A DNA stretch of 37,161 nt from Planctomyces sp. (GTDB taxonomy: Bacteria; Planctomycetota; Planctomycetia; Planctomycetales; Planctomycetaceae): positions 1 through 37,161 of the forward strand of contig JAEUIH010000074.1 in the NCBI GenBank assembly GCA_016795105.1, written 5' to 3'. Below, piece by piece: positions 7,025 through 37,087 of the stretch. The notes below the pieces were generated by a model that was given only the letters and a program-made list of their open reading frames with translations, was not told the origin of the DNA and did not search any database. Positions within the stretch are counted from its first letter, which is position 1. The number at the start of each line of letters is the position of its first letter. The position numbers were made by a program, and so were the translations under genes.

Positions 7025-7035
7025 GGAAACTCACG

Positions 7036-8382: not shown

Positions 8383-8411
8383 GTAGCAGGCAGACTCCGT
8401 CTGCCGTCCGC
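8383..8411 (+). repeat. REP-like element, family F1, copy 1
   Basis: Left arm GTAGCAGGCA, stem bases GAC, loop TCC, stem bases GTC, right arm TGCCGTCCGC. It starts 4 nt after the DUF1501 stop codon. GTAG at the foot of the hairpin is the head sequence known for REP elements bound by RAYT transposases. A further small hairpin, CGCATTG/CAATGCG, follows directly at 8411-8428. Four other copies are at 20720, 20812, 36931 and 37059. Confidence 0.85.
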
Positions 8412-8461
8412 GCATTGGTTTCAATGCGTGTCCACACATGATTTGGCCCAAACTCGACGAA

Positions 8462-8785
8462 TCAGTCATCGCGTTGTCGGGTGGCATCTTCTCGCAGGCG
8501 CATCGGGATGTTCATGTTCTCGTGTAGCACGCTGATCACGCCGATAGCGTCTGGCGGGAGGGCGCGGAAGAAGATGAAGTGCCGCTCGTATTGGATGAAG
8601 TAAACGCCAGGGAGTTCGGCATCCATTACAGGTCGCCAACGATTACGAAAGCTCGCAGCCTCCTGAATCGAACCAACGAGCCCCCGAATGTATTTGTCGG
8701 CCTGCTCTTCTCCCCATGTACGTTCGGTATACCCCCAGATCTCAATCAGGCGGCTTTTGGCAGCCCGAAGGAACTTAACTTCCAC
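8462..8785 (-). CDS. parE: ParE/RelE-family toxin
   Basis: A 107-residue protein when started at the GTG at 8785, eight bases after a GGAG inside the antitoxin gene. A GTG three codons upstream (8794) is an alternative; an ATG much further upstream would run deep into the antitoxin. VEVKFLRAAKSRLIEIWGYTERTWGEEQADKYIRGL is split here into its features: a beta strand, then two helices with the aromatic-rich IWGYTERTWG turn, as in ParE. The C-terminal half has the usual GVYFIQYERHFIFFRAL strands and an IISVLHE-like ending (GVISVLHENMNIP). ParE toxins typically inhibit DNA gyrase; the target here is not tested. The gene overlaps the antitoxin by 11 bp, indicating translational coupling. Confidence 0.88.
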   Translation of the reverse strand: MEVKFLRAAKSRLIEIWGYTERTWGEEQADKYIRGLVGSIQEAASFRNRWRPVMDAELPGVYFIQYERHFIFFRALPPDAIGVISVLHENMNIPMRLREDATRQRDD

Positions 8786-9044
8786 GCTCTGCACTCCGCG
8801 ATCTGGCCTCGTCAAGCAGGCGGTTCGTATCGAGCGATTCAAACTCCGACTCCGACGCCTCCAGACCTTCCTTGAGTTCGTGTCGCAACCAAAGCCATTT
8901 GCGTTGTTCCTCGCGTTCGTAGTCACGTCTCACAAGGTCACGAATATATTCGCTCGCCGAGGCATAGACGCCCGTTGCACCCGTTCGTTCCTGGATAAAC
9001 CGCTGAAGTTCGCCCGAAAACCGTACATTCACGCCTTCTGCCAT
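8775..9044 (-). CDS. parD: ParD-like antitoxin
   Basis: 89 residues from the ATG at 9044, which follows GGAGGG at the right distance; an in-frame ATG further upstream lies inside the operator and is rejected. The N-terminal part (VNVRFSGELQRFIQERTG) is a ribbon-helix-helix DNA-binding fold, and YASASEYIRDLVRRDYERE is the hallmark of the ParD/CC2985 family. The charged C-terminal half (about residues 45-89) would wrap the toxin. The antitoxin precedes the toxin and overlaps it by 11 bp, the usual order. The palindrome and promoter immediately upstream imply autoregulation by the antitoxin dimer. Confidence 0.9.
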   Translation of the reverse strand: MAEGVNVRFSGELQRFIQERTGATGVYASASEYIRDLVRRDYEREEQRKWLWLRHELKEGLEASESEFESLDTNRLLDEARSRSAERGS

Positions 9045-9064
9045 GAGAATACCCTCCGCGGAAA

Positions 9065-9108
9065 ATTGTAGTTTTGTCCCACAGATTGTCAATACTGTGG
9101 GACAAAAC
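9065..9108 (-). promoter_or_regulatory. parDE promoter embedded in a perfect palindrome
   Basis: Arms GTTTTGTCCCACAG (9071-9084) and CTGTGGGACAAAAC (9095-9108) are perfect 14-bp inverted repeats around a 10-bp spacer. On the minus strand the spacer holds a consensus -35 TTGACA (9092-9087), and TACAAT (9070-9065) is a near-perfect -10 after a 16-bp gap; the gap is filled by the downstream arm. A bound antitoxin dimer would therefore cover the polymerase site. The predicted start of transcription is only some 15 nt before the antitoxin ATG. Confidence 0.85.
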
Positions 9109-9162
9109 CAGGGGCTCTCCGCGGCAAACGCTCATTACCACAATGGGACGTGGGCCGGGGTT

Positions 9163-9193
9163 CGACATCACGACGGAGCGTGATGAGTACTTT
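9163..9193 (-). repeat. Dispersed palindrome, family F4, copy 3
   Basis: TCGACATCACG, loop ACGGAG, CGTGATGAGTACTTT on the plus strand. It lies 8 bp beyond the stop codon of the CRTAC1-like gene, and so just 3' of that minus-strand gene. The left flank GGGGTTCGACATCACG resembles copies 1 and 5. Confidence 0.8.
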
Positions 9194-9200
9194 GGGGGGG

Positions 9201-12092
9201 CTACTTTTCGGCGATATGTAGTTTTCCCTGCGAGGGGATGTCATGGAGGACGGTTGTTGTGCCTGAGGGCCAGAGGACGGTGAGTTCATCCACGCGTTCG
9301 TTGTTGGCCAGTCCGAAGAACAGCCGACGCTCGTTAGTTGCCTGATAGCCGTCGCCGGCCGTCAGTCGCTGAGAAATGATTCGGTCACCCACTTTGAGTT
9401 TCACGACGGAGCCAACGGCATCACGGGATGATTGGGTCGCGTGAAGGCGGATGTCGAGGCTTCTGCCGACAACTTCCGTTTCATTGAATGCGATCACGGC
9501 TGGTGAAGCGAGGTTCGAAATCACAAAGTCGGTTCGTCCATCGGCGTTCCAGTCTGCCGTTGCCAGCGATCTGCCGAGTGCTGCGACAGCGAACAGTTCA
9601 CCGGCCCTTTCAGCAGGCACCAGCTCATACTGGTTCTGTCCGTTGTTCAGAAAAAGTTGCGAAGGCATCCGGTATTCGACACCTGGTTCTCCAAAGTCTG
9701 CAACGTGTCCATTCGTGACGACAATGTCCAGGTCACCATCATTTTCGACATCGATAAACTGAGTACCCCAGCCGACATAAGGAATACCGGCTGCCATCAG
9801 TCCGGAGCCGGCGATTCGATCGCGGAATAAACCTGCCGAATTCTGAAGATACAGACAGTTGGCTTCCCCCTCAAAGTTGGTCACAAACAGATCTGTGAAA
9901 CCATTCTGATCAGGATCACCGGAAGCAACCCCCATGCAGGCGGTTGGCTGGCCATCTTTGTTAACGGCAAGGCCGGACAGGACAGCATGATCTGAGTAGA
10001 CTCCACTGGCAGATTCCGGACGGAGATAAAAATTTGGAACCTGATCATTTGCAATGAAGAGACTCGGGCGTGGATCGCCGTCGTGATAGATCGAGACAAT
10101 CCCCAGTCCTTTGCAGTTGATTTTTGGAACAGCGTCGGGAACGGCTGCGAACGTTCCGTCTCCGAGCGACAGCTGCACCTGATCGGGGGCACCGGTGAAG
10201 CTTCGAACAGAACAACGGTCCGCACTGCATTCGACTCGATAAACGCGCTCGCCCTCAAGGTAATTGACATCATAGAGATCTGGCCAGCCATCCGCGTTCA
10301 GGTCGAGGATCAGACAGCTCGTCGTCCACGACGTTCCCTGAATACCGGATTCATCTGTGACGTCAGTAAATGTTCCGTCGCCGTTATTGAGCAGCAGCTG
10401 GTTGCGACCCACATTTGCGATATACAGATCCGGGAAACCGTCGTTGTTGAAGTCTCCGGCTGAACATCCCTGACTGTATGCGTCATTATCTGCAAGACCG
10501 CAGACATCAGAAACATCAGAGAACCGCCCGCCGCGATTACGGTAAATGTGATCCCGATATTTCGGCGAGCCTGCGGGCTGATCGCTCCCCTGCGGCCATT
10601 CTTCGCCCTGAGTCAGCAGTAGGTCCGGCCAGCCGTCGAGATCTATGTCGATGACACCTGCCCCTCCACCTGTTGATTCAAAGATCCGTACGCCTCCGGA
10701 TGTTGAATCCGGCCCCTGAAAATAGGTGAAGTCCACTCCGACTTCCGCCGCTCGATTTGCAAAGCGAACCTCACCGACAGCTGCTGCAGGCTGAGCAAGG
10801 CCAGCTGCTGCCCTGGCGATTGCTGCCCTGGGGTCGGGCAACTTTGAGAGGTCATATGTTCGAGTCAGATCGCGATCGACAAGAATGCGTGGGGGATTTG
10901 CAGAGGGGACTCGACTCAGAGCCGCCCATTCCGGCTGGATGGCCATTTCGCCTTCTGAGAGTTGTTCAATCTTGCCAACCCAGGCCCACGCCTCCCAGTC
11001 TCTGCCCATGAGTGTCAGCAGCTCGATCAGGCGCTTGACCTGATCCGGATCTTTTCCGGCACTGTTAAGAACCTTCTCGAGAAGTTCACTGTACTCATGC
11101 AGTTGCTCCGCGCGTTCTGAAAAGGCGATGGCAGCCTCAGGATGACTGGTCTGCAGGACCTGTCCCAGCTGATACATTGCTTTTCGATGTGTAGGACTCT
11201 TTCGGACGACTTCCCAGAAGCAGCGAGCAGCGGCTTCATCGAGTTCCAGTCTTTGAGCCCACAGACCTCGAACGTACCAGATACTTACCGAATTGCTGAC
11301 AACGGACGGCAGGTCTTCATGCCATTGAGTTACGGCGTTGAGATCGGTATCCAGAAGCAGTTCTCCCAGCAGAGCCTGGGCTTCCGCAAACTCTGGCATC
11401 GCTTTCACGACGAGATCTGTTCGACGTCGTGCTTCTGCGAATCGCTGCGACTGCATATCTTCGAGCGCAAGCCCAAAAATGACGAAGGGATCGGTATTAT
11501 TATCTTCGTCGCACTGATGCAGGAGTCGGGTCTGTCGAGGAGGTCTTTCGGGTTGAGTATATGTGACCAGATCTTCCATTTCGATTGCACCCGATTTCAG
11601 CAGTTTAAACAGGTGTGATTCGGCTCTGGCTCGCTGACCGGAGATGGTGAAGATGGAAGCCAGCGTTGAACGCATTGACGAGTCATCCGGTTTTGAGCCC
11701 ACCAGATATTCAAAGTTTTCCGCGGCCTTTGAAAGCTGACAGCGTCGAAGCCATGTGTTCGCCGATTCCTCCGCGGCTCGCAGAGACAGGGGAGACCCAT
11801 CGCGTTTTACGGCAGCAAAGTACTCCAAAACTCCGTCCGAATCGCCTCTGCCTTCGACGATTTTTGCGAGCAGCATCTGGGCATCATTCCACTCAGGATC
11901 CTCACGAATAATGGTCCTGGCAAATTTCTCTGCTTCTATGGAATCGCCCCGCTTCATTGCTTCGATGGCTGCATCCATTCGAGTGGTCGAAGTCTCGCTG
12001 CTGCAGCCCATCATGATACTGAGCAGCAAACTGATCGTGCTCAGAACGATCGATGACCGGGAAGACAGCGCAGATTGTTTTGAAATCAACAC
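9201..12092 (-). CDS. CRTAC1-like lipoprotein: TPR region, FG-GAP/VCBS repeats, ASPIC/UnbV domain
   Basis: A 963-residue protein starting at GTG. A lipobox SIMMGC puts the lipidated cysteine at residue 30, so the mature protein is membrane-anchored. Residues about 35-350 are helical TPR-like repeats. Residues about 440-870 carry FG-GAP/VCBS beta-propeller repeats, each with a calcium-site-like D-x-D/N-x-D motif (DIDLDGWPDLLL, DFNNDGFPDLYI, DLNADGWPDLYD, DVENDGDLDIVV, DWNADGRTDFVI). The C-terminal about 70 residues (DAVGSVVKLKVGDR to VLWPSG) are the ASPIC/UnbV domain. Such proteins are common in Planctomycetota and probably bind carbohydrate or protein at the cell surface; the substrate is unknown. 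It starts 20 bp after the priA stop codon, so the two may share a transcript. Confidence 0.92.
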   Translation of the reverse strand: MLISKQSALSSRSSIVLSTISLLLSIMMGCSSETSTTRMDAAIEAMKRGDSIEAEKFARTIIREDPEWNDAQMLLAKIVEGRGDSDGVLEYFAAVKRDGSPLSLRAAEESANTWLRRCQLSKAAENFEYLVGSKPDDSSMRSTLASIFTISGQRARAESHLFKLLKSGAIEMEDLVTYTQPERPPRQTRLLHQCDEDNNTDPFVIFGLALEDMQSQRFAEARRRTDLVVKAMPEFAEAQALLGELLLDTDLNAVTQWHEDLPSVVSNSVSIWYVRGLWAQRLELDEAAARCFWEVVRKSPTHRKAMYQLGQVLQTSHPEAAIAFSERAEQLHEYSELLEKVLNSAGKDPDQVKRLIELLTLMGRDWEAWAWVGKIEQLSEGEMAIQPEWAALSRVPSANPPRILVDRDLTRTYDLSKLPDPRAAIARAAAGLAQPAAAVGEVRFANRAAEVGVDFTYFQGPDSTSGGVRIFESTGGGAGVIDIDLDGWPDLLLTQGEEWPQGSDQPAGSPKYRDHIYRNRGGRFSDVSDVCGLADNDAYSQGCSAGDFNNDGFPDLYIANVGRNQLLLNNGDGTFTDVTDESGIQGTSWTTSCLILDLNADGWPDLYDVNYLEGERVYRVECSADRCSVRSFTGAPDQVQLSLGDGTFAAVPDAVPKINCKGLGIVSIYHDGDPRPSLFIANDQVPNFYLRPESASGVYSDHAVLSGLAVNKDGQPTACMGVASGDPDQNGFTDLFVTNFEGEANCLYLQNSAGLFRDRIAGSGLMAAGIPYVGWGTQFIDVENDGDLDIVVTNGHVADFGEPGVEYRMPSQLFLNNGQNQYELVPAERAGELFAVAALGRSLATADWNADGRTDFVISNLASPAVIAFNETEVVGRSLDIRLHATQSSRDAVGSVVKLKVGDRIISQRLTAGDGYQATNERRLFFGLANNERVDELTVLWPSGTTTVLHDIPSQGKLHIAEK

Positions 12093-12112
12093 GGCGATTT
12101 GTCCCCGTATTT

Positions 12113-14362
12113 TCAGCGAGAATTGATGGGGTCCACGTCGACCGCCATTTCGATATTTTCAGGTAGTGTCAGGTCCTCTTCCAGCTTCTGCCAGATTTCC
12201 CGGACAAGATCCTGAGTCTTTCCGCAAATCTGAAGATGAAATCGCCAGAGATTTCTGAGTCGTGTCACCGGGGCTGGAGCTGCTCCAAGGATGCGAATGT
12301 CCTTCAAATGATCCTTCCTCAGAGCTCGAAGTCGATCCGCTACGGCCTGAGCTGTCTGCAGGACCTGCTGTTCGACGGGTCCACGGAAAATGACGCGGGT
12401 TACAGAGCTAAAGGGGGGTGCAAAGTGTTCATGGCGTTCTGCCAGTTCATGCTGAGCAAACCCGACGTAGTCATGTTTTGATGCAAATTTGACTGCGGGA
12501 TCTTCCGGGCACGTTGTCTGAACAAGGACTCGCCCCCCGCGAGTTCCTCGTCCGGTTCGACCAGCGACCTGAGCAATCAGCTGAAATGTTCTTTCTGATG
12601 CTCTCATATCCGGTTGGCGAAGCATTGTGTCGGCATCGATGACTCCCACAAGTGTGACGTTGGGAAAGTCGAGTCCCTTAGCGATCATCTGAGTACCAAG
12701 CAGGATCTGAACTTCCCCGCTGCGAAATTTTTCGAGGGCCTCGTCATGGCTGCCCGGACGACGCATTGTGTCACTGTCCATTCTGAGAGACGTGGCATTG
12801 GGAAATGTCAGACGGACTTCTTCGTCGAGTTTCTGCGTTCCCGTTCCGAGATAGCGAATGGCCTGCGATTCGCAGACAGGACAGCGTTCCGGGGGAGGTG
12901 TTTCAAAGTCACAGCTGTGACAGATCGCAGAACCGCGATCACGATGCCAGGTCAGTGTGATATCACAGTTCGGACACTTCACTCCTGTCCCGCAGCTCCG
13001 ACACCACACGGTTGGCGAATACCCGCGAAGGTTCAGAAACAGAATGATCTGCCCGCGATCCTGAAGGGCTTTGGTAATCGCCTGAAACAGCGCCCTTCCG
13101 ATTGCAGAACCTCGTGCAATTCGGGGATCTGATCGCGTATCAACAATCACTACCGGAGGAAGTGGTCGTTCAGCGACGCGATGTGGCATAGAGATTAGGA
13201 TATCCTGTTTCCGCTGAGCTCTGAGCCAGGATTCGAGCGTTGGTGTTGCGGAACCAAGAATCAGAGGGACCTGCTCCTGACGACATCGATACCGAGCAAC
13301 CTCGCGGGCGTGATAGCGGGGAGTACTGTCCTGTTTGAATGACGGCTCGTGCTCTTCATCGATAATGATCAGCCCCAGATGCGGCGCAGGGGCAAATACG
13401 GCACTGCGGGCACCGACGACGACTTGAATTCGCCCCTCGGCAATTTGTTGCCACTGCCAGTGTCTCTCAGAATCAGACATATGGCTGTGAAGAACAGCAA
13501 CATCAGGAAAACGGCTGCGAAATCGTCGAATTGTCTGAGGAGTCAGGCTGATTTCAGGGACGAGGACAATAGCCTGACGTCCGAAGGACACAACTTCACG
13601 GATTGCTCGAATATAGACCTCCGTCTTTCCACTGCCGGTGACACCGTGAAGCAACAGTGTCGAGTGCTGACCGGAATTGACTGATTCGAGTATCTTCGTC
13701 AGTGCGGCCTGCTGTTCTTCGCCGAGTGACAGGTCGCTTTCCGGAATCGCGTCAGTCGTGTGACCGCCTTCAACTTCCGAACGAACCCTGATGGCTTCTA
13801 TCAGTCCCTTCTTTCGCAGTGTTGTCAATGGAGACGGCCCACACTGAGCTCGCTCACACAACTCGGTGGCAGAAACCGGACCAGACGCCCGGATCAAAAG
13901 TTGAATGATCTCGTTTTGCTGGCGACTGAGTTTGAGTGTTTCAAGTCGATCAGTGATACCGGGTTTCAGGATGTAACTCTGGATGAGCCGAGTTCCACTC
14001 CGCCGGCGGACACCCGCGGGAATCACGCTCTCGAGAACCTGTCCCCAGCCACAAAGGTAACGCTCTCCAATCCAGCGAGTCAGTTCAAGCATGCGGCTGT
14101 CAAGGAGCGGCTCGCGATCTATCAACTCCGCAATCGGTTTGAGCCTTCGCTGATCGTCGGGATTCTTCTGGCGAATTCCAACACAATACCCGATCACCGA
14201 ACGATCACCGCGACCGAGAGACGCTTTGACTCGCTGTCCGGCCCGCAGCATCCCGCGAAACTCTTCCGGGATCAGGTAGGTGTATGGTTTCTCCAATGGC
14301 AGATTGAAAACCACTTCGGCAACCTGCACGTCCTCCTGGGCCGCCCGTTCCCATTCGGGCAT
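12113..14362 (-). CDS. priA: Primosomal protein N' (replication-restart helicase PriA)
   Basis: 749 residues when started at the ATG giving MPEWERAAQEDVQ; a GTG further upstream (14449) would add 29 residues with no ribosome site and no family match. The N-terminal DNA-binding domain starts at VAEVVFNLPLEKPYTYLIPEEF. The helicase core has Walker A GVTGSGKTEV, the DEEH box (IIIDEEHEPSFKQ), GSATPTLESW and the motif V/VI region VAGRTGRGTRGG. Between them a zinc-binding insert with eight cysteines is complete (CRSCGTGVKCPNC, CHSCDF, CPVC). PriA reloads the replicative helicase at stalled forks. The gene lies downstream of the histone H1-like gene but is separated from it by a strong terminator, and CRTAC1 follows after 20 bp. 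Confidence 0.97.
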   Translation of the reverse strand: MPEWERAAQEDVQVAEVVFNLPLEKPYTYLIPEEFRGMLRAGQRVKASLGRGDRSVIGYCVGIRQKNPDDQRRLKPIAELIDREPLLDSRMLELTRWIGERYLCGWGQVLESVIPAGVRRRSGTRLIQSYILKPGITDRLETLKLSRQQNEIIQLLIRASGPVSATELCERAQCGPSPLTTLRKKGLIEAIRVRSEVEGGHTTDAIPESDLSLGEEQQAALTKILESVNSGQHSTLLLHGVTGSGKTEVYIRAIREVVSFGRQAIVLVPEISLTPQTIRRFRSRFPDVAVLHSHMSDSERHWQWQQIAEGRIQVVVGARSAVFAPAPHLGLIIIDEEHEPSFKQDSTPRYHAREVARYRCRQEQVPLILGSATPTLESWLRAQRKQDILISMPHRVAERPLPPVVIVDTRSDPRIARGSAIGRALFQAITKALQDRGQIILFLNLRGYSPTVWCRSCGTGVKCPNCDITLTWHRDRGSAICHSCDFETPPPERCPVCESQAIRYLGTGTQKLDEEVRLTFPNATSLRMDSDTMRRPGSHDEALEKFRSGEVQILLGTQMIAKGLDFPNVTLVGVIDADTMLRQPDMRASERTFQLIAQVAGRTGRGTRGGRVLVQTTCPEDPAVKFASKHDYVGFAQHELAERHEHFAPPFSSVTRVIFRGPVEQQVLQTAQAVADRLRALRKDHLKDIRILGAAPAPVTRLRNLWRFHLQICGKTQDLVREIWQKLEEDLTLPENIEMAVDVDPINSR

Positions 14363-14472
14363 CTCTGCAAACCCAAAAAGATTCTGCTGCTGAGTCACCT
14401 GAATGAGCCATTCGGAAAGCGGGCAATCGGAAAGAGAGCACTGCAGCACGAAATATAGGGAGACAGAAACGC

Positions 14473-14509
14473 AAAAACGACCGAGGTCCGTCAGGACGAC
14501 TCGGTCGTT
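14473..14509 (-). terminator. Intrinsic terminator of the histone H1-like gene
   Basis: AACGACCGAG pairs with CTCGGTCGTT, extended inward by GTCC/GGAC across loop GTCA with a two-base GA bulge. On the minus strand the hairpin is followed by TTTTT. It lies 47 bp after the stop codon of the H1-like gene and upstream of priA, so priA needs its own promoter or read-through. Confidence 0.9.
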
Positions 14510-14555
14510 GCAGTTCGAACAGAGAAACCGTTCGAAATCACAGCTGCTGCGAGAA

Positions 14556-15847: not shown

Positions 15848-15941
15848 GTCCTGATCTCCCGCATTATTTCCCTTATTATTGCAGTCTCTTTAGAATTGGG
15901 TAGCTCATTGAGAATCTTCCAGTACCCGCCAGGAGTTTGCC

Positions 15942-20018: not shown

Positions 20019-20048
20019 TCAGGATCGTGACACAATGGAGCCCGTCCA

Positions 20049-20642: not shown

Positions 20643-20719
20643 GCACTGGACTCTGCCGTGACGAAGGCCCGGCATGGAGGGTGCTCGACGGCGTAAAGCA
20701 TTCGGAGAATGCGTCTTAC

Positions 20720-20840
20720 GTAGCAGGCACATTCCATGTGCCGTCCGCGACACGGTGGTTGGGCGGACAGCAGACAGGCGGGAGGCAGACGGCGGACGGG
20801 GGACGGGGGAGGCGGACGGCAGACGGAGTCTGCCTGCTAC
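20720..20840. repeat. Inverted pair of F1 REP-like elements (BIME-like)
   Basis: Plus copy 20720-20748 has stem bases CAT/ATG around TCC; minus copy 20812-20840 has GAC/GTC. The arms GTAGCAGGCA and TGCCGTCCGC are identical in both. The 63 bp between them is a G-rich run of GGCGGAC/GGCAGAC-like fragments that look like degenerate pieces of the element. The minus copy overlaps the end of the next gene: the TAG of its GTAG head is that gene's stop codon (20837-20839). Confidence 0.9.
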
Positions 20841-21727
20841 AGGAAGACAGTGTTCGCTTTCGATTGCATTTCCTGCTGTTCGAGCTCTGCCCGAAATGGA
20901 TTCCAGATTCCGATTCTCTCGCCGGCCTTTGTTGCCAGAAGCGGCTCGATAAGTTCAAACATTTCCCGTTTCATCTGAGTAAAATAGGCTGAATACTGCA
21001 TGGCGAATGCTGCATCGCCTTCCTGCCTTCCGGCTTCCTTCAAAGTACTGAACCTTTCGAGGTTATCTCCTCGCAACGGATCGCCGGGTCGAGTCTCTGA
21101 GACGTAAATATTAGAAAGCACGACGGCAAAGAATTCCTCACTCGCACGCCAGGTGTCACCCGTCGCCACGACTTCAAAAACTCCCTTCATTGCTCGCCAC
21201 GCATGAACACACTCATGAAACAGTACGTCGTCAGCACCGTAGCCATAACGCGAGGTGTCAAACCCACAAACCTCATCCACAGATCTCATCTGTCTGGATG
21301 AATTCCATGCACCAGGGTGGTAGTACAGTGTCACGTTCGAGCCAAGCCCGTTGCCAATCACCATCAGGTTGGAATGCGCTGGCATATCGATTGTTCCGGG
21401 CCGAGGGGCAGATGACCAGCGTTCGCCGTCTGCACCTGTTGTTTCATGGCCATTTTTCAGGGCATACGTCCAGTCGAACGGCTTTGCGCGAGTCTGTTGC
21501 TTATTCTGTCTGCGAATCGGCAGGACCTCGATATAACGCCCGCTGATCTCATTGATCAGTCCAATCAGCTTCCTTCCAATCCTGCTCTGTTCGATCTTGC
21601 GAAACACATTCTGAACGTCGACTTCCCATTGTTCAGCTTCCCATTTCGCCCATCGCGTTTCCGTCTGGTCTGCTTCCACCACGCAATATCCATCTATGCG
21701 GATGTTCTTCCCCCAATAACGCGGCAT
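20837..21727 (-). CDS. Putative zinc metallopeptidase with HExxH motif (M91/NleD-like)
   Basis: 296 residues from the ATG at 21727, which has GGAG seven bases upstream (an adjacent ATG at 21730 is equivalent). A longer frame exists but its added N-terminus has no ribosome site. The motif VLFHECVHAWRAM (H171-E-x-x-H175) is a zincin active site, and EEFFAVVLSNIYVSE about 22 residues later supplies a possible third ligand. The layout GYGADDVLFHE...EE resembles the M91 peptidase family (NleD-like), but I am not certain. No secretion signal is seen. The stop codon lies inside a REP-like element. Target unknown. Confidence 0.65.
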   Translation of the reverse strand: MPRYWGKNIRIDGYCVVEADQTETRWAKWEAEQWEVDVQNVFRKIEQSRIGRKLIGLINEISGRYIEVLPIRRQNKQQTRAKPFDWTYALKNGHETTGADGERWSSAPRPGTIDMPAHSNLMVIGNGLGSNVTLYYHPGAWNSSRQMRSVDEVCGFDTSRYGYGADDVLFHECVHAWRAMKGVFEVVATGDTWRASEEFFAVVLSNIYVSETRPGDPLRGDNLERFSTLKEAGRQEGDAAFAMQYSAYFTQMKREMFELIEPLLATKAGERIGIWNPFRAELEQQEMQSKANTVFL

Positions 21728-21860
21728 CATCGATCTCCGAGCAGTTTTCCCGGGCTTTTTGGCCTTGCTTGTCGGCGGCGGTTCGCGAAATTGCAAACCG
21801 CTCACGAGCCCCATCGAAGGCAAGTGCCGACCGCGGCCAAAATTTCTCTCAAAAAAAATC

Positions 21861-21884
21861 GTAGCTTGGGCATTCCTGCCCGAG
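21861..21884 (+). repeat. REP-like element, family F3 (single copy)
   Basis: GTAG head followed by CTTGGGCA, loop TTCC, TGCCCGAG: an 8-bp stem with one G-T pair. The GTAG head and CC-containing loop match the other families although the stem sequence differs. It lies between the M91-like gene's start and the end of the M16 gene. Confidence 0.7.
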
Positions 21885-21973
21885 CCGCCCCTGGCACCGC
21901 ATCCTGGCACGCCCCTGGCATCAATCGCCTGGCTGGCTGGATTTCATCCAGCGTGCGCAGCCGATTCCAGGAC

Positions 21974-26135: not shown

Positions 26136-26145
26136 TGGTGGAACT

Positions 26146-26799: not shown

Positions 26800-26820
26800 A
26801 CGATCCTCGTTGGTCAATCT

Positions 26821-26845
26821 GTAGATCAATTGTCCTCAATTGATC
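26821..26845 (+). repeat. REP-like element, family F2, copy 1
   Basis: GTAG head, then arm ATCAATTG, loop TCCT, arm CAATTGAT, C. The stem is perfect over 9 bp counted from GATCAATTG. It lies 21 bp after the stop codon of the paralogue gene. Confidence 0.85.
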
Positions 26846-26881
26846 ACGAACCACGCCCAAATTGATCACGAACCACGCCCA
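26838..26881. repeat. 22-bp perfect tandem duplication overlapping the F2 element
   Basis: AATTGATCACGAACCACGCCCA occurs twice without a gap (26838-26859 and 26860-26881). The first copy begins in the right arm of the F2 element, so this looks like slippage or replication duplication of the element's tail. Confidence 0.9.
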
Positions 26882-26912
26882 CGCTCTGCCGAAAACTACA
26901 ACCACGGGGTTT

Positions 26913-26937
26913 GAACGATTGAGGACAATCGTTCTAC
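26913..26937 (-). repeat. REP-like element, family F2, copy 2 (inverted)
   Basis: On the minus strand: GTAG, arm AACGATTG, loop TCCT, arm CAATCGTT, C. Compared with copy 1 the stem differs at two base pairs and both differences are compensated. The TAG of its GTAG head is the stop codon of the kinase-FGE gene (26934-26936). Confidence 0.9.
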
Positions 26938-30184: not shown

Positions 30185-30307
30185 CGGTACACCTGTAGTT
30201 CTGAATCAAAATTGATGTAACACTTTACTTTGAGGTCAGTACATGGGGCGTGGGGTTAAGAAACCCAAAAAAATCCTCAAACTATCATATATAAAGGAAC
30301 TCGTCCC

Positions 30308-31216
30308 ATGCCACGCCGCAATGCTCGTCGCCAGTCTGTCGCCTCAAATTTTAATCGACCAGCAGAAATCCTGGAAACTCGACAGGTACCTGCCGGTTTC
30401 GTCCTCGCCAGCGTCTCAGCGGGTGTCCTGACAATTACCGGAGACAATCAGGCCAATAACATCCAGGTGAATCCGAATGCTGATGGTTCAGTTACTGTCA
30501 GAGGTCGTAGCCTAACCTCCGTTAACGGTTCGCTTTTCAGCGCCGCCACCTTCACCGGAGTCCAGAATATCACCGTGCAGATGAACGGAGGAAATGACAC
30601 CGTTGCTGTTGGAAATGGTGACGTTGACTCAACTATTCCAGTGGACCTCAACATCGATATGGGTGCAGGGGCCGACACCGTCGATCTGCGACGTCTGACG
30701 GTGGGCGACGATGTTCAGATTCTGACTGGTGATGGAAATGACCTCGTCCGTCTGGAACAGCTGAAAGTCGGCGGTCTGGGCGTCAACAGCAACCAGAACG
30801 ACCTTCTGGTCGATACAAGCCGAGCGAGTTCAACGGGCAGCGATGTGGATCAGGTGCTGATGTATCGCCTGACCGTTGCACGAAATGCAACCATCCTCAC
30901 TGGTGCTGATGCCGACAATGTGGTCAACGACGACCGATCTCTGTTTGTTGTTGGCTTCCCGACCTCGACTCCCTTCACCGACGTCGCCGGCGATCTCTCA
31001 ATTCAGACCGGTGACGGAAACGACGTCGTTGACCTCGACCTTGTCCGAGTAATCCATGATCTGAATGTCGACCTGAATGATGGCAATGACCGTCTGGCGA
31101 TTCGACGATCGGTGGTCGTCAACGAAGCAAATCTCGACGGCGGTGACGATAACGACACCCTGTTACTGATCGATTCCTTTTTCGGTGACCTCGATCTCGA
31201 CAGCTTCGAACTCTAA
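30308..31216 (+). CDS. RTX/hemolysin-type calcium-binding surface protein
   Basis: 302 residues with AAAGGAA 9 nt before the ATG. The N-terminus RRNARRQSVASNFNRPAEI, then LETRQVPAGFVLASV is a planctomycete surface-protein signature (a LExR-type motif), not a classic signal peptide. From about residue 95 to the end there are repeated GxGxDxhx-like loops: NGGNDTVAV, GAGADTVDL, GDGNDLVRL, GADADNVV, GDGNDVVDL, NDGNDRLAI, DDNDTLLLI. These resemble RTX parallel beta-roll repeats that bind calcium. No enzymatic domain is seen. The gene is followed by two hairpins, the second a strong terminator, and then by a dispersed palindrome. Confidence 0.85.
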   Translation: MPRRNARRQSVASNFNRPAEILETRQVPAGFVLASVSAGVLTITGDNQANNIQVNPNADGSVTVRGRSLTSVNGSLFSAATFTGVQNITVQMNGGNDTVAVGNGDVDSTIPVDLNIDMGAGADTVDLRRLTVGDDVQILTGDGNDLVRLEQLKVGGLGVNSNQNDLLVDTSRASSTGSDVDQVLMYRLTVARNATILTGADADNVVNDDRSLFVVGFPTSTPFTDVAGDLSIQTGDGNDVVDLDLVRVIHDLNVDLNDGNDRLAIRRSVVVNEANLDGGDDNDTLLLIDSFFGDLDLDSFEL

Positions 31217-31237
31217 TCACACAACATGATTTCCGGG

Positions 31238-31302
31238 ACGCGATGCGATGATGCATCGCGTATGAGGGCCGCCGCAGTCGGGGATCTGCGGCGGCCCTTT
31301 TT
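31238..31302 (+). terminator. Tandem hairpins with strong intrinsic terminator after the RTX-like gene
   Basis: First hairpin: ACGCGATGC (31238-31246) and GCATCGCGT (31253-31261), perfect 9-bp arms, six-base loop. Second: GGGCCGCCGCAG (31266-31277) and CTGCGGCGGCCC (31286-31297), perfect 12-bp arms, loop of 8, then TTTTT. The second is a textbook Rho-independent terminator; the first may be a stabilising stem. Confidence 0.95.
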
Positions 31303-31324
31303 CTATTTGAGGTCCCTCATCAGC

Positions 31325-31360
31325 AAAGTACTCATCACGCTCCACCGTGATGAGTACTTT
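31325..31360 (+). repeat. Dispersed palindrome, family F4, copy 5 (perfect hairpin)
   Basis: Arms AAAGTACTCATCACG and CGTGATGAGTACTTT are perfectly complementary over 15 bp around loop CTCCAC. Compared with copy 2 only one loop base differs. It stands 108 bp beyond the RTX-like gene's stop codon, after the terminator, so here it is not needed for termination. Confidence 0.9.
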
Positions 31361-31506
31361 GGGTCTATCGTGGTTCAAACGACTATTTGCCTGGATTTCA
31401 GGAAGCCTGCCGATTCGAACATCGAGTATCCTGCGGTATAATGCTGAAGTCAGCTTCGGATTCATGACTCCACGGGTCTCTGTATTCTCATTAGCAGTTC
31501 TCCAGA

Positions 31507-33252
31507 ATGACAAATCAACGACGTCAGACCGACAACGACCTGAAAGACGAACGTCTTGCTGTCATTCTTGAACAACTGATGGAACAGTCAAAAGACGGTC
31601 CCCGCCTTGACGTTCTCGAAGCCGCCATCCGGGAGAACCCGGAACTGGAACGCGATCTCAGAGAACTTTTTGCAACAGCGATGATCGCCAGTGACGCTGC
31701 CTTCTTCGAACAATCCGATGCTCTGATTCGAATTACTCGCAACCCTGGTCATTCCACTGTTCCTTCGGACTCGGTCTTTGGGTCCGCCATTGGAACTCGG
31801 ATCGGCGACTATGAACTGAGGCAGGAACTTGGGCGCGGCGGTATGGGGGTTGTTTATCGCGCCTGGCAGAATACTCTGCAGCGAACAGTGGCTCTGAAGA
31901 TGATTCCCAATGCGGCGTTCGCGTCCCCACAGGACCTGGCGCGCCTCCGAGCAGAAGCACTCGCCGCTGCCCGACTCAGCCACCCCAATATTGTTCCTGT
32001 CTACGATGTCGGCGAATACAACGGGCAGCCGTGGTTCAGCATGCAGTTCGTGGAAGGCGTCACTCTTTCTCAGCGACTTGCCGATGGACCGATGCCAGCC
32101 CGCGATGCCGCTGAACTGCTGCTACCGGTTGTCGAAGCCATCGGTGCTGCACATCGAGCAGGGGTGCTCCATCGAGATATCAAGCCATCCAATATCCTGA
32201 TTCGTTTTGACGGTGTTCCGTTTGTTACTGACTTCGGACTCGCCAAACGTGTGCCGGTTGCCGACGACAATCTGCTGACTGGCCCTCGAGATGCCAGCCT
32301 CACTCAGAGCGGCGCGATCCTCGGCACCCCCGCCTGGATGTCGCCCGAACAGGCGGCCGGTCAAACCAACGCCATTGATGTTGCTACCGACATCTATAGC
32401 CTGGGTGCCGTACTTTATGCCATGCTGACCGGTCGTCCGCCGTTTCAGGCTGCCTCACCATTCGACACTCTGCTGATGGTGATGGAACAGGACCCGCCAG
32501 CCCCCAGATTACTCAACCCTGCTGTGGATCCGGATCTCGAGATGATCGTTCTCAAGTGCCTGCAGAAGCCAGCAGACCTGAGATACCCATCCACCCTGGC
32601 ACTTGCCGGTGATCTGCAGGCATGGCTCAATAATGAACCCGTCAGCGCTCGTTCGTCGACTATCGCTCAGGTTATGACACGACTCTTTCGAGAATCCCAC
32701 CACGTCACGATTCTCGAAAACTGGGGCCTGTTGTGGATGTGGCACAGCCTTGTTCTGCTCCTGCTGTGTCTGACGACAAATGGGTTCCAGTTCTCCGGAG
32801 TCGATTCACGGTGGCCATATGTTGGACTCTGGGTCGTAGGACTTGGACTCTGGGCAGCGATCTTCTGGAACCTGCGTCATCGAGCCGGGCCGATCACGGC
32901 CATCGAACGACAGATCGCTCACGTCTGGGCCGGCAGTATGGTGGCCTCGTCCATGCTGTTTGCCGTTGAGTCCATCATGGATCGTCCGGTGCTCGAATTT
33001 TCGCCGGTTCTGGGGACCATCGCCGGTATTGTGTTCCTCGTCAAAGGCGGGATGCTCTCCGGAAGCTTCTATATTCAGGCCGTTGCTCTGTTCACCACGT
33101 CTCTTCTGATGGCCGCCATCCAACGTAGTGGGCTCCCCAATTTCAGCATCTCCCTGTTCGGGGTTGTCTCTGCACTCACCTTCTTTATCCCGGGCCTGAA
33201 GTATTATCGACAACAGAAGATCCGTCGGCCCCATGCATCAAATCGACTTTAG
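31507..33252 (+). CDS. Membrane-anchored Ser/Thr protein kinase with multi-pass C-terminus
   Basis: 581 residues. Residues about 100-375 are a complete Hanks-type kinase: GRGGMG 109-114, VALK Lys131, HRD 222-224 with KPSN, DFG 242-244, and GTPAWMSPEQA. An N-terminal helical region (1-95) with ERDLRELFATAMIAS precedes it, a layout common in planctomycete kinases. The last about 175 residues contain about five or six hydrophobic helices (for example MWHSLVLLLLCLTTNG, LWVVGLGLWAAIFW, SPVLGTIAGIVFLVKGG), so the kinase is cytoplasmic and tethered by a membrane bundle. There is no extracellular sensor domain. The start ATG is close to the end of the preceding palindrome and has no clear ribosome site. 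Confidence 0.93.
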   Translation: MTNQRRQTDNDLKDERLAVILEQLMEQSKDGPRLDVLEAAIRENPELERDLRELFATAMIASDAAFFEQSDALIRITRNPGHSTVPSDSVFGSAIGTRIGDYELRQELGRGGMGVVYRAWQNTLQRTVALKMIPNAAFASPQDLARLRAEALAAARLSHPNIVPVYDVGEYNGQPWFSMQFVEGVTLSQRLADGPMPARDAAELLLPVVEAIGAAHRAGVLHRDIKPSNILIRFDGVPFVTDFGLAKRVPVADDNLLTGPRDASLTQSGAILGTPAWMSPEQAAGQTNAIDVATDIYSLGAVLYAMLTGRPPFQAASPFDTLLMVMEQDPPAPRLLNPAVDPDLEMIVLKCLQKPADLRYPSTLALAGDLQAWLNNEPVSARSSTIAQVMTRLFRESHHVTILENWGLLWMWHSLVLLLLCLTTNGFQFSGVDSRWPYVGLWVVGLGLWAAIFWNLRHRAGPITAIERQIAHVWAGSMVASSMLFAVESIMDRPVLEFSPVLGTIAGIVFLVKGGMLSGSFYIQAVALFTTSLLMAAIQRSGLPNFSISLFGVVSALTFFIPGLKYYRQQKIRRPHASNRL

Positions 33253-33435
33253 GCGCCATCATTTTGATGTCGAATCGGCGAATATTGCCGACGACCAAAA
33301 ATCAACATAACACCATATGCTACAGCAGTTTAAATCATTCGGAGTCATATTGGCATAAGACGTGTTCCAGATGGGGCTAGAGGCGAACAAGTACAGTCGC
33401 CCTCAAAACCCCAACTCAAGACGAGGACCACAGTC

Positions 33436-34317
33436 ATGACTCGAACAACTCTCAAAGCCGCCTGCTTAGTCTGGCTGCTGGCTTGTTCAGGATCTCGAGT
33501 CGCCGCAAACGATATCGAGAATTTTTTCCGGGGACTTCGGGGCGGATCAGGTCCGCAACATTCCGGAGTCCCTGTCGTACCGGTGAGTGATCACCATGGA
33601 ATGCACGACCGATCCGGTATGCACGACCGATCCGGCCGCAATTTTCAGGGAGGCGGGCGCGGTGGAGTGTCTGGGCTCAGCAGCCGGGACACTTACAAAA
33701 TTCAGCAGCGAATTGCTGAAAACTACCATGATGGCCGAGGTCATGGTCGAGGAGCTGGTTACCAGCATTCCGGCATGGACCGAGATCGGTATCAGCTGCG
33801 GGACGACTATCGCCATGATCGACATTTCGGAAGTCAGCCCGTTGCGATTGGCGGACGAAGCGGTACCCGAATCTCCTTCAGTTTCGGCAGCGGCGGTTAC
33901 AATTCAGCGTACCGAGGTGGCTACGATCCGGGCTATCAGGTGCCGGTCACACCGGTCTATCAGCAGCCAGTGCTGCCTTACGTACCTGCACAGCCTCCGA
34001 TGGTGATTATGCCTCATGAGCTTGGTGAAATCGTCACCTGTCCGGTTCCACTCGCGACTTGTATCCGAGTGGAAGATCCTGAAAAGATTGCTCCAAACTC
34101 TGTTCCTGTCGTCGTAGCGGTCCGCGATCCAAACCTTCCGCCACACGCGTCGGGCTGTGTCGAACGATTGGTCTACGTCGAAGTCTGTGTTCCGTCGTGT
34201 CCGATGCAGAAGCTCGTGATTTCACCGTGCAAGACACGAATTCAGATGGAATTCGGTCACTATCAGGTTGATATCCGGTCCTGCCACGGCGAGATCGTAA
34301 TTGATTACGACAACTAA
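33436..34317 (+). CDS. Secreted His/Gly/Arg-rich protein of unknown function with Cys-rich C-terminus
   Basis: 293 residues; GAGGA precedes the ATG. A Sec signal (TLKAACLVWLLACSGSRVAA) is followed by a region rich in His, Gly, Arg, Tyr and Asp (about 40-180) that could bind metals or polyanions. It contains an exact tandem repeat GMHDRS-GMHDRS encoded by two 18-bp units. A Pro/Tyr/Val linker leads to the C-terminal domain (about 195-293) with six or more cysteines (TCPVPLATC, SGCVERLVYVEVCVPSCPM, SPCKTRI, RSCHGE), probably disulfide-bonded. No family recognised. It lies between the membrane kinase and pheT, with no evident functional tie. Confidence 0.8.
   Translation: MTRTTLKAACLVWLLACSGSRVAANDIENFFRGLRGGSGPQHSGVPVVPVSDHHGMHDRSGMHDRSGRNFQGGGRGGVSGLSSRDTYKIQQRIAENYHDGRGHGRGAGYQHSGMDRDRYQLRDDYRHDRHFGSQPVAIGGRSGTRISFSFGSGGYNSAYRGGYDPGYQVPVTPVYQQPVLPYVPAQPPMVIMPHELGEIVTCPVPLATCIRVEDPEKIAPNSVPVVVAVRDPNLPPHASGCVERLVYVEVCVPSCPMQKLVISPCKTRIQMEFGHYQVDIRSCHGEIVIDYDN
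33601..33636. repeat. 18-bp tandem duplication inside the secreted-protein gene
   Basis: ATGCACGACCGATCCGGT at 33601-33618 and the same with final C at 33619-33636, encoding the repeated hexapeptide MHDRSG. Length remains a multiple of three, so the frame is preserved. Confidence 0.9.
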
Positions 34318-34328
34318 GGGTTGAACGT

Positions 34329-34364
34329 GCCAAATCCCGCGGGAAAGCCAAATCCCGCGGGAAA
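34329..34364. repeat. 18-bp perfect tandem repeat containing CCCGCGGG palindromes
   Basis: GCCAAATCCCGCGGGAAA occurs at 34329-34346 and 34347-34364 without a gap. Each unit contains the self-complementary octamer CCCGCGGG. It lies just after the secreted-protein gene. Confidence 0.9.
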
Positions 34365-34441
34365 AACGACGCAGACGACAAAGAACGCATTTCCTGAGAG
34401 CCACTGTAGCCGCTACAATTCGGGGGAAATACTCAACTTCG

Positions 34442-34473
34442 CACCTGCTGTTCGCAGCAGGTGTTCTTTTTTT
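34442..34473 (+). terminator. Terminator-like UUCG-loop hairpin directly upstream of pheT
   Basis: CACCTGCTG and CAGCAGGTG form a perfect 9-bp stem with a TTCG tetraloop, followed by TTCTTTTTTT. It ends 22 nt before the pheT ATG. It could terminate the upstream secreted-protein transcript, 125 nt after its stop codon. A possible promoter with -10 TACAAT at about 34412-34417 would place the hairpin in the pheT leader, as an attenuator; the -35 (TTCCTG) is weak. Confidence 0.7.
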
Positions 34474-34495
34474 CCCCTTTGATCGTTTGACGCCC

Positions 34496-36520
34496 ATGAT
34501 TGTCAGTCGCAGCTGGCTTAACGACTACGTTCCACTCACAATGCCTGTCGCAGACTGGACAGACCGCCTCACCATGTCCGGCCTGAATCTGGAAGAATTC
34601 CATGATGTCGGCAGCGACGTGGCCGCAGACGTGGAAGTCACCAGTAACCGCCCGGATTGTCTTGGACACATCGGGGTTGCTCGAGAAATCAGCGTCCTGT
34701 ATCAGCTGCCGCTCACCATTCCGCAGGCCCAGGTCGCGGAGTGTTCATCACCCGCCGCTTCCGCGGTTTCTGTTGTTAACGAGTGTCCGGATCTCTGTCA
34801 CGAATACCATGCCCGCGTGATTCGAGGTGTGAAAATCGGACCGAGCCCGGCGTGGCTGCGAGATCGGCTGAACGCTGTTGGAATCAACTCTGTCAACAAT
34901 GTCGTCGATGTGACGAACTATGTCATGCTGGAATGTGGCCAGCCACTGCATGCATTTGATTTCGATAAACTGAACGGTCAAAAAATCATCGTTCGTCGAA
35001 GCCGAAAAGGTGAAACGATCACAGCCATCGATCAGCGACAGTATGTTCTCAACGATGACGTCTGTGTCATCGCCGATGGTACTCGACCTGTCGCTGTTGC
35101 CGGAGTCATGGGTGGTCTTGATACCGAAATCAGCCCATCAACGACAAATGTCCTGATCGAAACAGCCTCCTTTGCACCACTCTCCGTTCGCGCGACTGCC
35201 CGAACGCTGAAGCTGCACAGTCCGTCATCTTACCGTTTTGAGCGCAAGGTTGACCGTCGCCAAATGGACTGGGCTTCTCGAAGATGCTGTGAACTCATCC
35301 TGCAGGTGGCGGGCGGTGAACTTCTGAAAGGCTCTGTCGTTGCCGGCGATGCTCTTCCGCCCCACCGAGAGTCCATCACTCTGCGGTTCGAAAAAGTCTC
35401 GCGACTACTGGGCATTGAGATCCCTGCAGCAACCTGCGTAGATATCCTCAAACGTCTGGGACTAACGTGTACTGGTGAGACTGCCGATCAGGCAACGTTT
35501 GAACCACCTTCGTGGCGCCCCGACCTTCTTCGCGAATGTGACCTGATCGAGGAAATTGCTCGGATTCACGGTTACGAAAACATTCCAACCGATGCCATGC
35601 TGCCCGTCGTATCGACGTCACGCACAGTTCGCGAACGCGTATTAGATGGGATCCGCTCCCACCTGACCTCCTGCGGACTTTACGAAGCTCTGACACTGTC
35701 TTTCGTCAGCGACGCTCAAAGAAACCTGCTGCGACTTCGAGGTGACCTGCCTCCGGTCGGTGTGTCTCATTCCAGTCGAAGCCTCGAAAGCCAGCTGCGA
35801 CAAACGCTGATTCCCAGTCTGCTGCAGTGTCGTCGTCAAAACGAGCGTCACGGAAATCTGAACGCTGAACTCTTTGAGGTCGCCAAAGTCTACCTGGCGG
35901 CCGGGACAGGGCAGGCTGAACACATCGCGGAGCCAACGGTTGCCGGTCTTGTCTGCGGCCGACCATTTCTAATCGTGAAGGGACTCGTCGAATCGCTCGT
36001 CAGAAGCCTCGCGCCTCATGCCAAACTGACATCCGTTCCATGTAGTCTGCCCGAGTTTCTGGCCGGTCGCGGAGCTCAACTGTCGCTGAATGGCCAGCCC
36101 TTCGGATGGATTGCCGAACTGGATTCAAAAGTACTTGAAGCGGCCGATCTTCAGGACCCGGTCACAATGGCCGAAATCGACGTCTATCTTCTGGAACAGG
36201 CCTTTGAAATGTACCGCCATTTCACTCCTCTGCCTCGATTCCCGGCGATCTCACGCGACCTGAACTTTGTCCTGCCGGAAGACACTTCCTGGGATCAGCT
36301 CTCAAAAACGGTTACTGAAGCCGCCGGTGAATTGCTGCATGATGTCAGCTTCGGCGGCCAGTACCGCGGCAAACAGATTGATGCCGACAAAAAGTCATAT
36401 GTGATCACCTGCCGTTTCATGGCTCCGGAACGTACACTCACGGCAGATGAGGTTGAAAACGCGGTTGCGAAAATCCTGACTGCCTGCGAATCTCGATTAA
36501 CGGCCAGACTGCGAGCCTGA
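34496..36520 (+). CDS. pheT: Phenylalanine-tRNA ligase beta subunit lacking the tRNA-binding OB-fold domain
   Basis: 674 residues from the ATG at 34496; a TTG three codons upstream is possible, and no Shine-Dalgarno sequence is visible for either. The N-terminus MIVSRSWLNDYVPL runs only about 40 residues before VEVTSNRPDCLGHIGVARE, so the OB-fold/EMAP-type tRNA-binding insert, which normally sits between them (about 110 residues), is absent. Usual full-length PheT is about 800 residues. The B3/B4 editing domain (about 75-270), B5 (about 285-365), catalytic-like core, and C-terminal FDX-ACB domain (PLPRFPAISRDLNFVL, about 580-672) are present. It charges tRNA-Phe with the alpha subunit, but no pheS lies next to it here. 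panD follows after 48 bp. Confidence 0.95.
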   Translation: MIVSRSWLNDYVPLTMPVADWTDRLTMSGLNLEEFHDVGSDVAADVEVTSNRPDCLGHIGVAREISVLYQLPLTIPQAQVAECSSPAASAVSVVNECPDLCHEYHARVIRGVKIGPSPAWLRDRLNAVGINSVNNVVDVTNYVMLECGQPLHAFDFDKLNGQKIIVRRSRKGETITAIDQRQYVLNDDVCVIADGTRPVAVAGVMGGLDTEISPSTTNVLIETASFAPLSVRATARTLKLHSPSSYRFERKVDRRQMDWASRRCCELILQVAGGELLKGSVVAGDALPPHRESITLRFEKVSRLLGIEIPAATCVDILKRLGLTCTGETADQATFEPPSWRPDLLRECDLIEEIARIHGYENIPTDAMLPVVSTSRTVRERVLDGIRSHLTSCGLYEALTLSFVSDAQRNLLRLRGDLPPVGVSHSSRSLESQLRQTLIPSLLQCRRQNERHGNLNAELFEVAKVYLAAGTGQAEHIAEPTVAGLVCGRPFLIVKGLVESLVRSLAPHAKLTSVPCSLPEFLAGRGAQLSLNGQPFGWIAELDSKVLEAADLQDPVTMAEIDVYLLEQAFEMYRHFTPLPRFPAISRDLNFVLPEDTSWDQLSKTVTEAAGELLHDVSFGGQYRGKQIDADKKSYVITCRFMAPERTLTADEVENAVAKILTACESRLTARLRA

Positions 36521-36568
36521 TTCGGCCTGGTTTTTTTTGTTCTTCATTCTGCCGAACGGCTGAGTACC

Positions 36569-36928
36569 ATGAAACGGATGATGTTGAAGTCCAAGATCCA
36601 TCGAGCGACAGTAACCGAGGCAAACCTGCATTACGAAGGCAGTATCACCATCGATCCGCTGCTGATGGAAGCCACCGATATCGTTCAGTGGGAACAGGTC
36701 GATGTTTATGACATCACCAACGGCAACCGTCTGACAACTTATGCCATCAGCGGCGAACGAGGTTCCGGCGTCATCTGCCTCAACGGTGCTGCCGCTCGAC
36801 TGATCGAAGTCGGTGACCTCGTCATTATCTGCAGTTACGCGGAATTCAGCGAAGAAGAACGTCTCAAGCATCATCCAAAAATCGTGCTCGTCAACGAAAA
36901 CAACGTCGCCTGCGGCTCCGCTGTATAA
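36569..36928 (+). CDS. panD: Aspartate 1-decarboxylase precursor
   Basis: 119 residues. It makes beta-alanine from aspartate for pantothenate and CoA. The self-cleavage site is Gly24-Ser25 in [11 protein letters not shown], exactly the usual position; Ser25 becomes the pyruvoyl cofactor. Also conserved are [35 protein letters not shown] (as ISGERGSG and ICLNGAAA) and the [12 protein letters not shown] strand. The start at MKRMMLKSK aligns with the common MIRTMLQGK start. It lies 48 bp after pheT, possibly cotranscribed. A REP-like element starts 3 nt after its stop codon. Confidence 0.97.
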
Positions 36929-36930
36929 AA

Positions 36931-37087
36931 GTAGCAGGCACTCTCCGAGTGCCGTCCGCCACGTCCCTGAACCGCGTAAGCATGCGATGTCAGGGGATTG
37001 CTACGAAGAACATCGCTGCGCGCATTATGCGTGACGAGGGAATCCGGGCGGACATCGAGCGGACGGCAGACGGAGTCTGCCTGCTAC
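36931..37087. repeat. Inverted pair of F1 REP-like elements (BIME-like) after panD
   Basis: Plus copy 36931-36959 has stem bases CTC/GAG around TCC; minus copy 37059-37087 has GAC/GTC. Both keep the arms GTAGCAGGCA and TGCCGTCCGC. The 99 bp between them contains a further inverted repeat, GCGATGT (36984-36990) with ACATCGC (37010-37016), but no gene. The sequence from 37088 to the window end shows nothing recognisable. Confidence 0.9.

Follow-up and report, generated by a model that had tools for sequence, protein, structure and literature searches.

The stretch of DNA analysed here, termed the window, is the 37,161-nucleotide contig JAEUIH010000074.1 of Planctomyces sp., which corresponds to contig C363 of the host assembly (8.9 Mb, 391 contigs). 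It contains a family of short hairpins, named F1, that carry GTAG at the foot and follow the pattern GTAGCAGGCA-NNN-TCC-NNN-TGCCGTCCGC with free inner triplets. An initial annotation had interpreted five such copies as repetitive extragenic palindromic (REP) elements linked to a REP-associated tyrosine transposase (RAYT) and arranged like bacterial interspersed mosaic elements (BIMEs). All five could be confirmed (Table 1): each possesses exact arms, the TCC loop and complementary inner triplets, and only about 7e-8 such 20-base matches would be expected in the window by chance at equal base frequencies. Four of the five form two inverted pairs with GTAG facing outward, CAT/GAC and CTC/GAC, as had been claimed; such pairs are referred to below as REPINs (REP doublets forming hairpins). 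The census had overlooked a sixth, degenerate TTC copy abutting the first pair, in which 6 of the 20 fixed sites have changed and the TTC/GAA triplets and TCC loop are retained. The GTAG of the right arm of the first pair provides the TAG stop of an open reading frame (ORF) of 357 amino acids (aa) at 20837-21910(-).

Table 1. F1 REPs and REPIN linkers in the window, and variant-head REPs at other loci of the host genome.
Feature	Position	Strand	Remark
F1 REP, GAC allele, solo	8383..8411	+	3 nt (AAA) after stop of ORF 6982-8379(+)
Degenerate F1 REP, TTC allele, head GTAAGACGCA	20691..20719	-	abuts 20720 copy; array remnant; outside pair statistics
F1 REP, CAT allele, REPIN 1 left arm	20720..20748	+	
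REPIN 1 linker, 63 nt	20749..20811	.	
F1 REP, GAC allele, REPIN 1 right arm	20812..20840	-	
F1 REP, CTC allele, REPIN 2 left arm	36931..36959	+	2 nt after stop of ORF 36569-36928(+)
REPIN 2 linker, 99 nt	36960..37058	.	
F1 REP, GAC allele, REPIN 2 right arm	37059..37087	-	
Variant-head REP	L018:881-909	-	
Variant-head REP	L018:961-989	-	
Variant-head REP	L026:9018	+	
Variant-head REP	L027:14933	-	

A search of the host genome returned 374 copies with exact arms and the TCC loop, so the family is hundreds of copies strong, while a reversed-pattern control returned none; with a middle of free length and letters the figure is 383. Among exact copies, the CAT allele occurs 121 times, GAC 82 times, and CTC and TTC together 142 times, the last count including at least one CTC/GAA copy. 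The analyses that follow were performed on 120 stretches, taken around copies among the matches listed, around RAYT matches and at five further contig starts, which together with the window amount to 2.18 Mb. This selected, non-random sample yielded 409 copies when up to five changes at the 20 fixed sites were allowed; 342 of these show no change at any fixed site, which represents about nine tenths of the exact copies in the genome.

The inner triplets are complementary in 387 of the 409 copies (CAT 132, GAC 96, CTC 76, TTC 74, CTT 5, GTC 2, GAT 1 and CAC 1) and non-complementary in 22, and the loop is TCC in 391. The proposal that the triplets are always complementary therefore holds for the five window copies and for most, not all, of those in the 2.18-Mb sample. 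The further proposal that the hairpin and not the sequence is maintained proved too strong, given that the GTAG foot, the outer arms and the TCC loop are conserved to the letter. The stem varies as some four cassettes, its base pairs not changing freely one by one, and thus few independent changes can be counted within the genome. The complementary triplets do support covariation, but the better evidence comes from comparison between species: a search that did not require pairing found complementarity in 58 of the 64 inner 4-bp stems located near RAYT genes. Ten distinct complementary 4-bp stems were found in this manner at 15 of 80 RAYT loci, the other 65 being without F1-like arms of this type.

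Profile searches of the host genome identified nine Y1_Tnp matches, and among the eight stretches around them a single gene, on contig C42 (L018:175-834, 219 aa), adjoins F1 REPs. As had been anticipated for a cognate transposase, the gene is flanked by the same element: on its 3' side the REPs begin inside its stop codon, while no F1 REP occurs in the 174 bases 5' of it, where the contig begins. The nearest F1 REPs to the RAYT on contig C33 lie approximately 10 kb away, and the RAYT on contig C353 carries GTAG repeats of its own. The frame of the C42 gene is open and its product scores 27.6 bits against Pfam Y1_Tnp (PF01797), over the 23-bit cut-off, and 63.6 bits against NCBIfam NF047646 (REP_Tyr_transpos), under the curated 80-bit annotation cut-off; it is a divergent RAYT. 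In an alignment of eight sequences, neither the tyrosine nor either histidine of the HUH motif varies. Searching the PDB with the C42 sequence retrieved no RAYT. The predicted fold of a 68% identical homologue (L200; mean predicted local distance difference test score, pLDDT, 80.9) had its best PDB match in 4er8, the complex of a RAYT with a REP hairpin (E 9.6e-6; TM-score 0.54 by target and 0.42 by query length; root-mean-square deviation 9.4).

The 80 homologue loci belong mostly to planctomycetes, with additional members from Verrucomicrobia, Poribacteria-labelled genomes and others. A GTAG hairpin with a TCC loop is present at 36 of them, and TCC is the loop of 122 of the 153 GTAG hairpins with three-base loops. 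F1-like hairpins stand beside homologues of 54-69% identity in several genomes, and when 43 loci were inspected singly, some were found to possess such hairpins on both sides of the gene and several to possess none near it. Many RAYT relatives in other planctomycetes are flanked by the same design, consisting of a GTAG foot, a covarying stem and a TCC loop.

For the analysis of pairs, 12 of the 409 copies were dropped (more than four changes, or non-complementary triplets with more than one change), and the 397 retained copies were grouped into 143 arrays of copies no more than 300 bp apart. Neighbouring copies form 129 GTAG-outward pairs, 77 GTAG-inward junctions, of which 76 are exactly 1 bp long, and 48 direct pairs, in support of the BIME-like arrangement. 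The GTAG-outward pairs are almost strictly heterotypic in this genome: one of the 129 carries like alleles, against 33.5 expected from shuffles, and the same is true when one pair per locus is counted (1 of 92, 22.9 expected). None of 20,000 shuffles was as low as observed in either count. Like alleles are found at 2 of the 77 GTAG-inward junctions and in 42 of the 48 direct pairs. Some arrays also contain, between normal copies, REP variants headed by ATAACACGCA or TTAACACGCA, with the identical three head positions changed each time (Table 1).

The unlike combinations are themselves unevenly represented. Among the 129 outward pairs, CAT-TTC (51), CAT-GAC (35) and GAC-CTC (26) are frequent, and CAT-CTC (4), GAC-TTC (3) and TTC-CTC (1) are rare; there are nine further pairs with minor alleles, and one CTC-CTC pair. 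When like pairs are left aside and 84 loci with the four alleles are considered, TTC-CAT (32 observed, 19.4 expected) and GAC-CTC (19, 7.4) are over-represented, and CAT-CTC (4, 13.5), TTC-GAC (2, 10.5) and TTC-CTC (1, 5.1) are under-represented.

Comparison of array units with a linker identity of at least 0.75 revealed that an arm can change allele as a block while its partner remains unlike. Both alleles are kept in 32 comparisons and differ in 10; three of the latter read as point changes (L026 twice, L034), and the other seven represent a whole-cassette change in four arrays (CTC/CAT at L019, TTC/GAC at L066, CAT/CTC at L093, CAT/GAC at L117). A fifth switch, at L035, places GAC instead of TTC in one of three units, whose linkers fall below the identity threshold. 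None of the five switches produced a like pair, although five cases alone constitute weak evidence. When adjacent units of equal length are compared, 14 of 920 fixed arm positions and 61 of 744 linker positions differ.

Folding was predicted with DNA parameters for 105 distinct REPINs whose heads are intact. Among these, the 50 short-linker REPINs have minima that average -27.9 kcal/mol in their natural form and -42.3 kcal/mol when the arms are made alike in silico, while two separate hairpins average -15.1 kcal/mol. When ten allele combinations were placed on one backbone, the ratio of observed to expected pairs rose as the long hairpin became weaker (Spearman 0.68, p 0.03). Bertels and Rainey (PMC3116915, in the legend of Figure S11) suggested that RAYTs probably fail to recognise the long hairpin and do recognise a less stable clover form; the predicted energies fit this suggestion without proving it.

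On the basis of copy number, complementarity, the RAYT and the arrays, the original interpretation of F1 as a GTAG REP with a linked RAYT and BIME-like organisation is upheld. We assign a probability of roughly 0.85 to the reading that F1 is a RAYT-associated GTAG REP family in REPINs, which would have been spread by the RAYT, and whose arms would be kept unlike by competition from a long hairpin. The unit consists of a pair of inverted REPs, GTAG facing outward, on either side of a variable linker; such units often form tandem arrays joined by 1-bp junctions and are mostly intergenic, often directly behind a gene. In single-stranded DNA each arm may fold into a short hairpin, as do the TnpA-REP substrates of E. 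coli, Stenotrophomonas and Marinomonas. By analogy with these systems we infer that the C42 RAYT recognises the element and that the REPINs are mobile: the protein would read an intact stem together with its GTAG foot and TCC loop, and would cleave and transfer strands so that REPINs spread. The corresponding recognition features of group 3 TnpA-REP are described in PMC8266576 as GTAG, the loop and an unmismatched stem. Because the stem would be read as a shape, its inner three base pairs would be free to change while pairing is kept; four such cassettes circulate. As the reason for strict heterotypy in this lineage we infer that identical arms would form one perfect long hairpin in competition with the two small hairpins that the transposase needs, and might also provoke deletion, so that arms must be unlike; unlike triplets would weaken the long hairpin. 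It may further be, and we put this forward tentatively, that the inner triplet serves as a self-avoidance tag, cassettes being exchanged as blocks and only unlike arms persisting, which would keep the small hairpins available or the element undeleted.

A number of observations weigh against this reading. The predicted minimum includes the left arm's own hairpin in none of the 105 REPINs, and therefore the prediction makes the two-hairpin form rare whether the arms are like or unlike. Within the six unlike combinations, pair frequency shows no significant relation to folding energy (Spearman 0.66, p 0.16), and GAC-CTC is frequent despite a middling folding energy. Two other genomes hold F1 copies and gave no match to the C42 RAYT: G009, with three intact exact copies, and G054, from another planctomycete family, with 14 exact-arm, TCC-loop copies, of which 8 have non-complementary triplets, a point against covariation as well. 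The mismatches in G054 would fit decay without a transposase, yet the intact copies of G009 are likewise without a match.

Other lineages add to these objections. A scorable GTAG-outward pair with TCC loops is present at 22 of the 80 RAYT loci, 11 unlike and 11 alike (two loci, L217 and L218, share the same pair and may be duplicates). All 50 exact-arm copies of G051, whose RAYT is 54% identical, are CAC/GTG, and 22 of them lie in 11 overlapping pairs that generate 56-bp palindromes. Since homodimers are common in relatives with similar RAYTs, heterotypy is no general requirement. Genome G007, with 10 copies, has beside its RAYT two pairs that are unlike by one base pair (CCC versus CAC), and in the same-genus genome G001, among the matches listed (100 of 187), one family shows unlike pairs and another like pairs. 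Strict heterotypy is hence a property of this lineage or of its allele set, not of the RAYT clade.

Finally, three combinations account for 112 of the 129 pairs, a pattern that a few founder REPINs could also give. According to such a history, CAT-TTC, CAT-GAC and GAC-CTC REPINs were amplified in the absence of any like-allele founder. Direct neighbours, which are possible local duplicates, are alike in 42 of 48 cases, as this explanation would have it. We nonetheless consider it doubtful, as arms switch allele in arrays yet stay unlike their partner, and as short linkers carry almost no signal of type (identity 0.626 within a type, 0.610 between types and 0.570 when shuffled, at 36 loci), values so near the shuffled level that the comparison is not decisive.

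Equally unlikely in our estimation is that like pairs arise and are then lost, through stalled replication at perfect palindromes or cleavage of these by SbcCD. That heterodimers are protected from clearance is a suggestion of Di Nocera et al. 2013 (PMC3733652), and clearance would suit the single homotypic pair among 129, the long-hairpin folding energies and the presence of SbcD in the host genome. Against it, G051 retains its exact palindromic homodimers with an SbcD over the cut-off, and the homotypic family, a GTAG family other than F1, among the 100 listed of 187 matches in G001 also coexists with SbcD, the presence of which fails to separate homodimer from heterodimer genomes.

A role in mRNA, with the hairpins acting mainly as stabilisers of 3' ends, terminators or translation brakes and transposition being a thing of the past, appears less likely still, though the position of the arrays would agree with it. 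With greedy calling of ORFs of at least 120 aa, 68 of 126 gene 3' ends that face an array lie within 10 nt of it, convergent gaps are favoured (39 of 102 arrays, compared with 125 of 604 gaps), and a single array of the 104 testable falls inside a called ORF. Ribosome stalling has moreover been reported for REPs of E. coli that lie no more than 15 nt from a stop codon (PMC12306157, citing Liang et al. 2015). No T-run was observed in the 14 bases 3' of the REPs for any of the four alleles, however, the GTAG and loop sequences are conserved without an obvious need in an mRNA hairpin, and the linked RAYT gene has an open frame. AAA forms the outer flank in 117 of 209 cases, and outside the pairs the flank is AAA/TTT at three positions only. 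Outer REP ends supply the TAG stop of an ORF of at least 120 aa in 41 of 164 cases, the other two frames running on in 1 and 0. We considered this overlap as a new trait and rejected it, GTAG REPs having already been reported to behave in this way (PMC3733652). Of the 41 proteins concerned, 40 were scanned against NCBIfam: 13 matched no model, several others gave partial matches only, and those matching a full-length model (hisS, alaDH, dapA, truA, moeB, and Dpp7 below the cut-off) reach or nearly reach the model end, and these REPs therefore sit at natural gene ends.

That like pairs are merely hidden, because perfect inverted repeats break contigs, is very improbable: 28 of the 143 arrays lie within 400 bp of a contig end, the sole homotypic pair in one of them, but even 28 hidden like pairs would yield 29 of 157 (18%), still under the shuffled 26%, and the draft genomes G001 and G051 hold assembled homotypic pairs.

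The window contains further features beside the F1 copies. A second GTAG hairpin family is represented by the pair 26821-26844(+) and 26914-26937(-), GTAGATCAATTGTCCTCAATTGAT and GTAGAACGATTGTCCTCAATCGTT, whose arms are again unlike; GTAGAACGATTGTCCTCAATCGTT and a near relative of GTAGATCAATTGTCCTCAATTGAT flank the RAYT on contig C353 (L195). Positions 37090-37161(-) resemble a group II intron at its 3' end (Rfam RF00029; E 3.2e-5; 32.3 bits, where the gathering score is 40 bits; interrupted by the window end), and at the gathering threshold Rfam gave no match in the window or five loci. This intron-like end and the GTAG of the 37059 REP are 2 nt apart. At L084 the sequence recurs, again 2 nt from an F1 REP, and it is also present, away from REPs, at L085 and where the RAYT contig (L018) begins. 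Beside the solo REP, two short overlapping ORFs at 8462-9092(-) resemble, by eye, a ParE/ParD-type toxin-antitoxin pair.

F1 is thus a RAYT-linked GTAG REP family arranged as REPINs, and its phylum is one with earlier reports of such repeats. Among the papers listed for REPs and REPINs in planctomycetes, PMC3733652 and PMC6006769 were the ones judged relevant by their titles, and the main text of RepRanger (PMC12306157) does not contain 'planctomyc'. In the portions of PMC3733652 drawn upon here, GTAG REPs arranged as REPINs or BIMEs are described from the Planctomycetes/Verrucomicrobia/Chlamydiae (PVC) superphylum. The GTAG-tagged REP superfamily of that paper (24 families, compared by text) shares with F1 the GTAG foot, the short palindrome, GTAG-outward dimers, heterodimers with different stems, TAG as the stop of a neighbouring ORF, a linked RAYT and occurrence in the PVC superphylum; F1 differs in its four interchangeable cassettes and in the near-absolute exclusion of like pairs. 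The REPINs of Pseudomonas fluorescens SBW25 (Bertels and Rainey 2011), in the sections of PMC3116915 concerned, are likewise inverted doublets with a variable spacer with paired ends, tandem arrays and RAYT linkage. They are described as symmetrical, however, with doublets better conserved than singlets, whereas F1 arms are unlike and singlet decay was not seen (0.205 changes per 20 sites in pairs, 0.229 in other copies). In E. coli BIMEs, unlike REPs (Y, Z1, Z2) also alternate; those of E. coli require a bulged stem and their loop is non-specific, whereas the variable stem of F1 is unbulged and its loop fixed as TCC, which places F1 nearer to the group 3 REPs of Stenotrophomonas (parts of PMC8266576).

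The kind of element is therefore already known, and it is the near-absolute rule of unlike arms, together with the four alleles, that is worth following. When the preference of REP families for heterodimers was described in 2013, it had 'no obvious explanation' (PMC3733652), and the self-avoidance tag, if true, would answer why such heterodimers are preferred. Four alleles and 129 scored pairs with one like pair, set against the like pairs of close relatives, offer a natural contrast that could separate transposition, clearance and founder explanations. Across planctomycetes and neighbouring phyla, the loci also document the co-evolution of RAYTs and their REPs, in which stems change, the GTAG foot is constant and the loop is mostly TCC.

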